Source: Populus alba
Taxonomy: Eukaryota; Streptophyta; Magnoliopsida; Malpighiales; Salicaceae
Reading direction: 5' to 3'
Assembly: GCF_005239225.2 (NCBI RefSeq)
Contig: NC_133291.1
Coordinates: 1,798,001-1,862,000, forward strand
Length of the DNA stretch: 64,000 bases
Part shown: positions 8,130 to 12,374 of the stretch, in pieces
Position numbering within the stretch: position 1 is the stretch's first letter
Layout of the letters: each line of letters begins with the position of its first letter
Made by a program: the position numbers and the translations under genes
Notes under the pieces: model-generated
The model's input: the letters and a program-made list of their open reading frames with translations, nothing else
Database searches by the model: none
Told to the model about the DNA's origin: nothing

Positions 8130-8234
8130 ATTTACCGACACTCCACAAGCACAAGTATTCCTTGAGGGCACAGTAAAGCATCCTGTGGATGTTTCATAGA
8201 ATGAGTTCTCCACAGCTTCATCAGCTGACATAAC
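8130..8234 (-). pseudogene. Last exon of a broken limit dextrinase (pullulanase-type)
   Basis: After a good minus-strand acceptor (CTGCAG at 8235-8240) the sequence reads VMSADEAVENSFYETSTGCF, then TVPSRNT. This matches the C-terminal end of plant limit dextrinases, the debranching enzymes that cut alpha-1,6 links in starch in plastids. As remembered, those end with a similar 'Q-V-x-S-x-D-E-V-V-x-N-S-x-Y-E' stretch followed by FTVP-R-TT-VFV. Here the usual TTSVFVE ending is replaced by TCACGVSVNF and the frame runs on into AT-rich sequence, so the original stop is lost. Together with the remnants at 8622-8737 and 12291-12374 it marks a dead gene. In Arabidopsis the intact gene (At5g04360) sits in the same neighbourhood. 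Confidence 0.7.
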
Positions 8235-8465
8235 CTGCAGCAGGATTCCCATAAAAAATATAAATAAATAAATAGGTAGGAAACAACATTTTCCAATGGG
8301 GTTTTTAACAGCCAAAGGAATGAATCATGAGAGCAAAATTAGCATGAACCAAAACATTTAGGGGCATCATTCCACTCGTAGTCGTCGATGTTTGTGCAAG
8401 TTAAACTTCCATATTGTCTATAACCTCAAACAGCTACCCTAAACTTATCCCAACTAGTCCACGAA

Positions 8466-8491
8466 GAGAGAGAGAGAGAGAGAGAGAGAGC
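8466..8491. repeat. (GA)n microsatellite
   Basis: About 13 uninterrupted GA units between the two limit dextrinase exon remnants. Confidence 0.9.
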
Positions 8492-8621
8492 AGGAACTCC
8501 ATGCGTCCGTTAGAAGTATTATTTAGAGTTCCATAGAAAAATAGATCAGCAGTGTTCTACTTATCAAAGAAATTTCAGAAGCCAGTCTTCTACTTAACCA
8601 AGAAATAACTCTTCCTATTTG

Positions 8622-8737
8622 GAAGGTTGCAACTTCTTAACCGCCACAGTTTCTGCTCATGCTTACTGTATACCTCAGATCCACTAGCATTGAAGATCAC
8701 CACAAAGTATGTGTAGCTGTAGACCCACATGGGCTCC
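8622..8737 (-). pseudogene. Penultimate exon remnant of limit dextrinase
   Basis: The minus strand encodes VYSYTYFVVIFNASGSEVYS, which matches the YSYIVVIFNA-x-P-x-EV segment that closes the C-terminal beta domain in plant limit dextrinases. After it the frame drifts to an unrelated ending (KHEQKLWRLRSC) where the family has a T-L-Q-L-HPVQ stretch. The exon begins exactly at the left LTR of the gag-only retrotransposon (8738), so the insertion sits at or inside the exon border. Order relative to the last exon (8130-8234) is correct for one gene on the minus strand. Confidence 0.65.
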
Positions 8738-9112
8738 TGACATAGCGAAATGCGAACGCAAATTAAAAAAAAAAAAAGGACACCACACCACCTCTTTTGA
8801 TATGGCCTGCTCAAATCCATGAGCAAAATTAACATCCAAATCCATAAGTACTGTTTCCCAAAGAAATTCTTATTCAAATTCAAAGTGTTCTGCTAAGTGA
8901 ATGGCTGCTTGTATTTATAAGCTTGCCATCCCTAATCCTGCTCAAATAATGACTTACGGAATTAAATAGGAAAAATAAGGGGTAACAAGAAAATCCCCCA
9001 CAAAACAGGACATAATGTCCTTAATTCACGTTCTAAGCAATAACAGAAATAATAGAGGCACCACGAGCCCCAACTAAAAATCTAGGTTTAATAAGGAAAG
9101 TGCAGCTTACAA
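8738..9112 (-). repeat. 3' LTR of the gag-only element
   Basis: This copy lies downstream in the element's own orientation. It is clearly homologous along its length to the LTR at 10973-11358, with point changes and a few small indels; its start TGACATAGC differs from TGACGTAGC. The divergence implies an old insertion. The exact inner end is uncertain by about 10 bp. Confidence 0.8.
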
Positions 9113-9379
9113 TTCTGTTATAAATGTCCCTCAATCAACTAGTAATATAGGCTTCCCCTACACCTTCGGTTTTACTATAGAGAAATCTTCTTTTAGAGGA
9201 CCTAATACTACCTGTCTTCCTCTCATGATGCATATATATTATCCCTCCACATCATATTGTCATGGCCTGCCTAGGATCATATAACAGGCATCCATTTTGA
9301 CAACATCATAAGTAATCTCATCCACGTAATTTTTCCTAATGGAGAATTAAATGCGGCAAGTTTCAGTAACCTTTATCTC

Positions 9380-9865: not shown

Positions 9866-10980
9866 TGTCCACACCTGTAGCATTTATCTAAAGTTGGTTT
9901 GGAATATGGATTCCTTGGTGCTTCTGGAGGCACTACTCTTGTAGTCGTCATTTGCATCTTACTGCTACTTAGTCCTTTTGAAAAGTTGGATATGGAGGGT
10001 GAAGGGTTTAGTGGGAACTTTCCTTTGTGTGATGCAACATGCATAGATTCAACAGGGATCCTTGCTACGCTAGTTGCTCTTGTATTGTCCAATAGTGTTT
10101 ATGCTTTTGTAGCCAAATTAATAGCTTCTGTTAAGAAATATATGGTGTACATTGAAACTCGGTCTTGTATATTTAAGCGGAATCCTCCAATACACCTAGT
10201 GACTTGTTGTGCGTCTATTTCCAACAAATTATTATGATAAGATAATATGTGGAATTTCTCCACATATGCTTGAACTGTTCGACTCCTTTGTCTGCAATCC
10301 TGATACTATTGAAACAATATCTGCTCATAATCTGGTGGTAAATACCTGTAATGCAACAGTCGTCTCATCTTGGACCAGGTCTGAACCATCCCTTTTCTCT
10401 GCCTCATTAGTGTGAGTTGTAATTGTTCCCACCAAGCGGAGGCTCCTCCCATGAGTCTGTAGACGACTAGCTTCACCTTTTTATCTTCAGGGATTCTATA
10501 TAGTCAAAGAACCTCTCCACTTCTGCTAACCAATCGAGCAACCCCTTAATTTGAAGCTGATCATTAAAGGTGGGTAAATCCATCTTCATCTGAAACGACT
10601 GAGGCTCTCACTCTCCCATGTTATGATAGCCCTGTCGATTAGGCCTTAATATGCATTTGGCATATTCTTCATCACTACTTAATTCTTCCTCATAGGCTAG
10701 CTATTTACGTGGAATTGGATTGTTTTAATGAGCAGGGTTAATTCTTTCCCTGTAATTCTCGCGAGCCCTCTCATCTTCATGCTGATGATTATTTCCATTT
10801 GTTAATCTAATAAGAGTTGCTTGTATTGCTTGCAAGGTTTGTTGGGACGCTGGAAAGTTCTAAATTTGGCCTGTGTGATTACGTTGTCTTCACAAATTCT
10901 TCCATCAAGAGCTTCTCGTTCGTTCAGTATATTTTCCATCTGAACAATGATTAGACCAGCTTTGATACCAACTGACGTAG
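9712..10980 (-). pseudogene. Degenerate retrotransposon gag
   Basis: Frame-broken gag gene of the Ty3/gypsy-like element. The longest intact piece (9712-10092, 126 aa) has a Ser/Pro-rich linker, then the CCHC zinc knuckle CYRCGQPGHRSNQC (C-x2-C-x4-H-x4-C) that binds RNA in functional Gag, and an acidic tail. Upstream, the capsid-like core is visible only in short frames (WLAEVERFFD, GGASAWWEQLQ). Stop codons and frame changes separate them. It cannot make a complete Gag. Confidence 0.8.
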
Positions 10981-11358
10981 CAGAATGCAAACGCAAATAA
11001 AAAAAAAAAGAAAAAAAGAAAGGGCACCGCCTCTTTTGATATGGCCTGCTCGAATCCACGAGCAAAATTAACACCTGAATCCACGAGTAACAAGTAACGT
11101 TTTTGAAAGAAAATTCTTATTCAAATTCAAAGTGTTCTGCTAAGTGAATGGCTACTTGTATTTATAAGCTTGCCATCCCTAATCCTACTCAAATAATGTC
11201 TTACAAAAATAAATAGGAAAAATAAGGGGTAACAGGAAAATCCCCCACAAAACAGGACTTAATGTCCTTAATTCACGTCCAAAGCAATAACAGAAATAAT
11301 AGAGACACCAAGGGCCCCAACTAAGAATCTAGGTTTAATAAGGAAAGTGCAGCTGTCA
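10973..11358 (-). repeat. 5' LTR of the gag-only element, with adjacent primer site
   Basis: This is the upstream LTR in the element's orientation. The minus-strand end CTACGTCA is followed two bases later by TGGTATCAAAGC (about 10959-10970), the primer-binding site complementary to initiator tRNA-Met. The outer end is either the CA at 11350-11351 or the CA at 11357-11358; the two LTR copies stop matching in this interval. Confidence 0.8.
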
Positions 11359-11464
11359 ATTCGTGTATGGTAGTAATTCCAGCAAGCTGTAATTCAGTTC
11401 ATGGCAACTTCTTTGTCTGCATCCTTGAGTTGTCCTGTAACAGCAACAAACTGTCCTGCATCAG

Positions 11465-12001
11465 ATCCAGTTGAGTTAATCCTGGAACACCTCCATGGCA
11501 ATCTTCAACACTAATCACTATAATACCAGGGGCCCATGAAATGGGCATCTTCAACACTCATCACTATAATAACAGGGGGGCCATGACGGGCAAGTGTTGT
11601 AGAATCGTACCCATTCCTAAACGCCAATTATTGTCACAACAATATACTCCCTACTCAACTAATATGTATAAAAAGATATGAAAAGAAAGGGAGAAACCCA
11701 GAAGAAAGTATTATGATAGTTCAAGAGGGAGAAATCCAGTTGAGTTAATCCTGGAACACCTTCATGGCAATCTTCAACACTAATCACTATAATACCAGGG
11801 GCTCATGAAGTGGGCATCTTCAACACTCATTATTATAATAGCAGGGGGGGCCATGACGGGCCAATGTTGTAGAATCGTACCCGTTCCTAAACACCAATTA
11901 TTGTCACAACAATATACTCCCTACTCGACTAATATGTATAAAAAGACACGAAAAGAAAGGGAGAAACCCAGAAGAAAGTATTATGATAGTTCAGGAGGTA
12001 G
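11465..12001. repeat. Two tandem copies of a 269-bp unit
   Basis: Both units start ATCCAGTTGAGTTAATCCTG, at 11465 and 11734, and run through GTTGTAGAATCGTACCC and CCCAGAAGAAAGTATTATGA. The copies are well over 90% identical by eye, so the duplication is recent compared with the LTR pair next to it. The unit has no clear coding content. It lies in what would be an intron of the dead limit dextrinase gene. Confidence 0.85.
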
Positions 12002-12290
12002 ATGCGGCTGCAATTTCAACTCAAGGTCCTTGGAGAAAAATTAGATATTGCTTTTAGTTTGAGAATAAATAGAAGTTATAAGCACTAAAAAAGATGGAAA
12101 AAAAGGATGATGAAAATACCATGACAGAATAACATTCAAGTATGAGAGTAATTATTTGAAGGATTGTACTAGAATTTGTGGAATGATCAAGGAATAGCAT
12201 CACCTGGCAAAGTTTTCGAGATTATGCAGGCCACAAGTACTGTGAGGAAAGCGTGGTTTGACTGGATATCAAAAGAACAATAATTATAAG

Positions 12291-12374
12291 AAAATTGTCA
12301 AGAACATAATTCTCATCAAAGGGCCCATTTCCATGCAAATGATTGTAGACAGCGCCCAGCACAACATGAAGGCC
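12291..12374 (-). pseudogene. Limit dextrinase exon remnant with conserved region I
   Basis: The minus strand reads GLHVVLGAVYNHLHGNGPFD and then ENYVLDNF. This is the alpha-amylase family (GH13) conserved region I as found in plant limit dextrinase/pullulanase, where I remember G-L-x-VVLDVVYNHL followed by an SVLDK-type stretch. The key region-I aspartate is replaced (LGAVYNH instead of LDVVYNH), and the sequence leaves the family pattern right after VLDN and meets stops. This is strong evidence for a decayed gene. It lies upstream (5') of the two C-terminal remnants at 8.1-8.7 kb, as expected for one minus-strand gene. No other catalytic exons (regions II-IV) were found. Confidence 0.7.

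Follow-up and report, generated by a model that had tools for sequence, protein, structure and literature searches.

The closest described relative of the locus reported here is plant limit dextrinase, or pullulanase 1 (LDA), which we take to be the enzyme of the AT5G04360 type. As in that enzyme, represented by the barley structures 2y4s, 4aio and 4j3s, remnants of the N2 domain, the CBM48 domain, GH13 region I and the C-terminal part follow one another in order on the minus strand of a 64,000-nucleotide stretch of the Populus alba genome (contig NC_133291.1, positions 1,798,001 to 1,862,000; hereafter the window), from position ~13922 down to 8132. Unlike the enzyme, however, the remnant lacks the catalytic core and carries stops and frameshifts, and no working enzyme is expected from it. 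The locus also resembles gene losses that followed the salicoid duplication, such as that of MIR1444a from Salix chromosome 8, in which, according to the MIR1444 passages of PMC5223194, one copy of a chromosome 8/10 pair was lost. The locus likely belongs to such a block, and whereas MIR1444a went with a deletion of ~8 kb, the LDA remnant is still readable.

We find that this part of the window holds a disrupted limit dextrinase gene, none of whose recognisable pieces encodes the catalytic motifs. It is likely one of the two products of the salicoid duplication, the one whose function was lost soon afterwards; its partner likely still makes the enzyme. No published report of this pseudogene was found in literature searches on limit dextrinase in Populus and in Salix and on pullulanase pseudogenes in Populus.

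A broken limit dextrinase gene

For the minus strand between 8 and 14 kb, the proteins used for comparison were barley limit dextrinase, Arabidopsis LDA and the LDA proteins of Populus euphratica (P0055, the reference for residue numbering), Salix viminalis (P0105) and Salix dunnii (P0037). An alignment tolerant of frameshifts and gaps scored 1165 with P0055 and 1225 with P0105. Sixteen shuffled proteins reached 291–335, and the opposite strand gave 334 and 338. At a gap cost of 9, these two proteins scored 1419 and 1488 and shuffled proteins 686–741, and the missing core became filled with very short matches; the gap cost was then raised. With tblastn, P0055 matched at 13922–13312, 12976–12592, 12430–12288, 11967–11438, 8715–8671 and 8240–8154, with a best E of 5e-28. 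The unshuffled Arabidopsis protein reached an E of 3e-14, whereas, of the 240 matches at E ≤ 10 to 42 barley and Arabidopsis proteins that had been shuffled or reversed, the best had an E of 0.029 and none reached E ≤ 0.01. The similarity to LDA proposed for this region by the initial annotation is thus significant in translated searches, although the C-terminal pieces alone match the barley enzyme weakly (E 0.084).

In all, the remnant consists of 14 pieces and 303 residues, with five stops as well as frameshifts. Over the 303 aligned positions it is identical to P0055 at 228/298 and to the Turnera protein at 189/296, and its nearest proteins are limit dextrinases of the Populus and Salix type. 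It is a limit dextrinase homologue beyond chance, and its lesions are disabling: no open, spliceable frame runs through the N2, CBM48, GH13 and C-terminal domains, given the fragmentation, the stops, the frameshifts and two long missing stretches.

In the 5' to 3' direction of the minus strand, and with domain bounds taken from Pfam on P0055 (N2, residues 93–206; CBM48, residues 213–298), the remnant begins at 13747–13922 with a first exon that is already frameshifted (P0055 residues 23–84; PSNPNAHFSPSPPSPRHR against PSNSNVCFSSSLPSPRRR, after which the frame changes) and that probably encoded the plastid transit peptide. Pieces of the pullulanase N2 domain follow at 13530–13667, 13484–13528 and 13312–13383 (residues 88–186), interrupted by two in-frame stops and a frameshift. 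The end of N2 and the CBM48 domain (residues 187–298) are spread over 12978–13010, 12929–12976, 12898–12921, 12705–12797 and 12601–12690, with three stops and frameshifts. Between these two groups lies 13219–13311, probably retained intron sequence, which resembles a stretch read through in the P0105 model and absent from P0055.

This stretch bears on the possibility that the locus is a retrocopy, that is, an LDA transcript that was reverse-transcribed, inserted here and left to decay. The pieces are indeed short and out of frame, as they would be in any old pseudogene. However, non-coding gaps divide them, and because the sequence at 13219–13311 resembles the probable read-through intron of P0105, we infer that the remnant is a genomic duplicate, with retention seen at this one putative intron. 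The neighbouring ZAT gene, described below, is moreover the expected LDA neighbour in many, though not all, of the species compared. We therefore give the retrocopy only the slightest chance.

Downstream of CBM48, the tolerant alignment places residues 301–316 at 12383–12430, and residue 477 follows almost directly, so that 160 residues are gone. The next piece, at 12297–12377 (residues 477–503, 23/27 identical), carries GH13 region I, in which DVVYNH has become GAVYNH, with glycine in place of the aspartate; the initial annotation had correctly noticed that this aspartate is changed. A tandem duplication of ~270 bp, with copies at 11735–12002 and 11466–11732, then holds a C-terminal exon remnant in each copy (residues ~858–900), the copies being identical at 252/267 positions (Kimura two-parameter distance, K2P, 0.059). 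Between the last exon remnants lies a long terminal repeat (LTR) retroelement on the same strand (8737–11362), which separates the piece ending at 11465 from that starting at 8715. The latter, at 8671–8715 (VVIFNASGSEV; residues 903–917, 11/15 identical), is weak alone (tblastn E 0.47) and is counted as an LDA piece because of its place and order. The piece VMSADEAVENSFYETSTGCFTVP follows at 8154–8240 (residues 934–962, 22/29 identical). Finally, 8132–8158 holds the original C-terminus and TAA stop in a shifted frame, reading ILVLVECR-stop, in which LVLVECR-TAA matches SVFVEYR-stop and the stop itself occupies 8134–8132.

The three minus-strand pieces from which a dead LDA gene had been proposed, namely the region I piece and the two at 8671–8715 and 8154–8240, are therefore real and in the right order, although of the interval 8622–8737 only 8671–8715 matches. 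That proposal missed 11 of the 14 pieces, those between 13667 and 11465, as well as the retroelement that separates the ends. It had also considered the stop region lost, yet a frameshift has displaced the stop while LVLVECR-TAA is retained.

The second missing stretch is the catalytic core. P0055 residues 507–839 have no match at E ≤ 1 by tblastn, and the tolerant alignment gives short, weak segments only. The motifs GFRFDLMGH, YGEGWDF and SAHDNE, which start at residues 554, 593 and 724 of P0055 and which we take to carry the catalytic residues, fall inside this stretch, and the short segments seen there are of the kind that shuffled proteins also gather. The short segments at 12216–11846 are treated as noise. 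All four motifs checked are present in P0055, P0105, P0036 and P0045. Just upstream of the first exon of the remnant, a tandem duplication of ~90 bp occupies 13948–14126 (families D10 and D11).

Placement, loss of constraint and timing

A tree was built from the remnant, five LDAs of the Populus and Salix type and those of 12 other species. The best tree makes the remnant the sister of the five, which form a clade without it with a support of 92, and the remnant and the five together are separated from the 12 other species with a support of 100, inside the Turnera split. The approximately unbiased (AU) test rejects a remnant sister to P0055 (0.004), sister to P0055 and P0036 (0.011) or outside the family (0.0005).

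These results speak to a second alternative, in which the copy arose by a later local or segmental duplication instead of the genome duplication. The remnant is nearest to the Populus- and Salix-type proteins, and a tree in which it is sister to Salix is not rejected by the AU test (0.218). Nevertheless, the best tree has the remnant outside the clade of Populus and Salix, the placements as sister to Populus are rejected by that test, and the neighbouring ZAT gene falls in a chromosome-8-type clade of its own, both ZAT types being present in S. viminalis. A later duplication is accordingly improbable, if the least so of the alternatives weighed here.

The remnant has changed without regard to the conservation of the protein. 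With invariant and variable sites defined over 17 LDAs, it differs at 25/98 invariant and 46/205 variable sites (71/303 in all). The corresponding control counts are 0/98 and 10/205 for Salix viminalis, 2/99 and 72/202 for Turnera, 6/103 and 73/197 for Mercurialis, and 3/100 and 76/202 for Vitis. The remnant is thus without selective constraint, and equal change at both kinds of site is what free drift from shortly after the salicoid duplication would produce. In relative-rate counts against five outgroups, the remnant shows 41–45 changes to 7–10 in P0055. This pattern of free drift, together with the lack of an Rfam match at the locus, argues against a remaining function of the locus as a transcribed pseudogene, such as the production of small RNAs against the intact gene. 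Nothing was found in favour of such a role beyond the persistence of LDA-like stretches, and we regard it as highly unlikely.

Simulated free drift reproduces the 71/303 changes at ~0.10–0.15 changes per site in one lineage. According to PMC7109076, synonymous divergence (Ks) between salicoid duplicates is 0.283 in P. trichocarpa and 0.365 in S. suchowensis, and that between Populus and Salix is 0.158; in poplar terms the per-lineage halves are ~0.14 for the salicoid duplication and ~0.08 for the split of Populus and Salix. Comparison of the simulated drift with these half-Ks values suggests that the loss of function likely lies closer in time to the duplication than to the split. The divergences of the LTRs (0.109) and of the tandem copies (0.059) are smaller, and therefore both events likely hit a gene that was already dead.

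The damage would then have accumulated in the following order. In the family of poplars and willows, the salicoid duplication would have left two LDA copies on paired chromosomes. The first event would have been the loss of function of the chromosome-8 copy, probably at a time when Populus and Salix had not yet separated. Insertion of the retroelement would have come next, followed by the tandem duplication, while the counterpart on the paired chromosome likely remains functional.

Chromosomal context and the likely working partner

The marker that ties the remnant to a chromosome is a ZAT-type C2H2 gene with an open frame at 2049–2957 on the minus strand, whose product is 99% identical to P0145 and of the chromosome-8 type. 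In a ZAT tree it shares one clade (support 94) with P0145, P0147, the Salix dunnii gene Sadunf08G0022200 and the S. viminalis protein P0151. A second ZAT type, which includes P0150 and P0152, stands apart; since P0152 is also from S. viminalis, that species holds both types. P0171, a ZAT protein from a Populus alba hybrid, has only 198 residues and is nearest to P0150 of the other type. The LDA of S. dunnii (Sadunf10G0178400) is numbered on chromosome 10, whereas its ZAT Sadunf08G0022200 is numbered on chromosome 8. The MIR1444 passages of PMC5223194 describe homologous blocks on P. trichocarpa chromosomes 8 and 10 that derive from the salicoid duplication, 60–65 million years ago. The ZAT neighbour and the S. 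dunnii numbering point to the chromosome-8 block as the likely identity of the window, and together with the known block pairs this places the working copy likely on the partner chromosome. The tree, the neighbouring gene and the S. dunnii chromosome numbers thus all favour the earlier suggestion that a partner survives from the genome duplication.

The ZAT gene is a neighbour of LDA in many, not all, of the species compared. The longest contigs carrying ZAT relatives and LDA are of equal size in 21 of the 41 species present in both lists. By their locus tags the two genes are separated by 1–3 genes in Phaseolus, Ulmus and Dipteronia, so that they are close in 3/5 compared; in Liquidambar the separation is 109 and in Erythroxylum 197. 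Two ZAT proteins of Hibiscus trionum carry the name 'like AT5G04390', and we take LDA to be AT5G04360, with shugoshin presumably near it in Arabidopsis. The lesions, the ZAT neighbour in other species and a shugoshin C-terminus within the window together support the initial annotation's proposal that a dead LDA gene occupies the conserved position.

A further alternative is that this was the sole LDA locus and that the partner is gone too, so that a starch-storing tree debranches its starch by isoamylases alone. However, the P. euphratica and S. viminalis LDAs carry all four motifs checked, and the neighbouring gene likely puts the window on the other duplicated block. Judged from these relatives, total loss of the enzyme is very improbable, and the reliance on isoamylases that had been offered as an alternative is not needed.

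Taken with a working partner, the case would be one of ordinary gene loss after genome duplication. Among the best 120 of 1122 matches, one LDA cluster (90% identity) occurs for each of P. euphratica, S. dunnii and S. viminalis, and the loss would explain this single cluster per Populus or Salix species despite the duplication. The locus then shows, in still legible form, the likely loss of one copy of a starch enzyme gene after that event, and the order of its damage can be dated; the understanding of starch metabolism is otherwise unchanged.

Several points weigh against such a loss with a surviving partner. Besides the tree with Salix as sister, two further placements within the family are not rejected by the AU test (0.094 each); the Shimodaira–Hasegawa test rejects the outside placement only, and the Kishino–Hasegawa test rejects that and the placement as sister to P0055. 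The S. dunnii model P0037 (Sadunf10G0178400) lacks the HDNE/SAHDNET motif and so may not be intact; an exon skipped in the model or a real lesion could each account for the gap. The working partner and the chromosome of the window are deduced from relatives. The blocks described in PMC5223194 are those around MIR1444, in one of which the window likely lies. Longest contig sizes for ZAT and LDA differ in 20/41 species, some of them from different assemblies. The dating relies on published rates and on pieces chosen for their similarity, and by eye the retroelement has no clear target-site duplication.

The inserted retroelement and neighbouring genes

The retroelement is bounded by LTRs at ~10972–11362 and 8737–9115, which are identical at 341/379 positions (K2P 0.109). 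On the minus strand it carries a gag-like piece at 10309–10503 (Retrotrans_gag, 24.0 bits, just below the Pfam cut-off of 24.1), a second at 10102–10299 (14.4 bits) and a zinc knuckle within 9712–10092 (31.4 bits, above the Pfam cut-off). Its two LTRs, gag-like pieces and zinc knuckle, and a presumed tRNA-like primer site recognised by eye, are shared with LTR retroelements with gag, presumably of the Ty3 type. It differs from such elements in having only ~1.9 kb between the LTRs. By eye it shows no polymerase part, the domain search having covered the three gag-side pieces. Direct duplications with a spacing of ~224–264 bp (families D3, D4 and D6) lie inside it at 9376–9864.

Elsewhere in the window, domain matches identify a DUF1635 protein at 17191–17910, the shugoshin C-terminus at 21798–22343, a pectate lyase at 35408–36286 and a nodulin-like transporter at 54261–56138. 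Pectate lyase and shugoshin are presumably near LDA in Arabidopsis too. An open frame of 1103 residues at 41285–44596 on the minus strand contains 23 WG and 27 GW pairs and has no Pfam match at E ≤ 0.001; it resembles the KTF1/SPT5-like WG-repeat protein, presumably also near LDA in Arabidopsis. A tRNA-Lys (TTT) gene lies at 39724–39796 on the minus strand.

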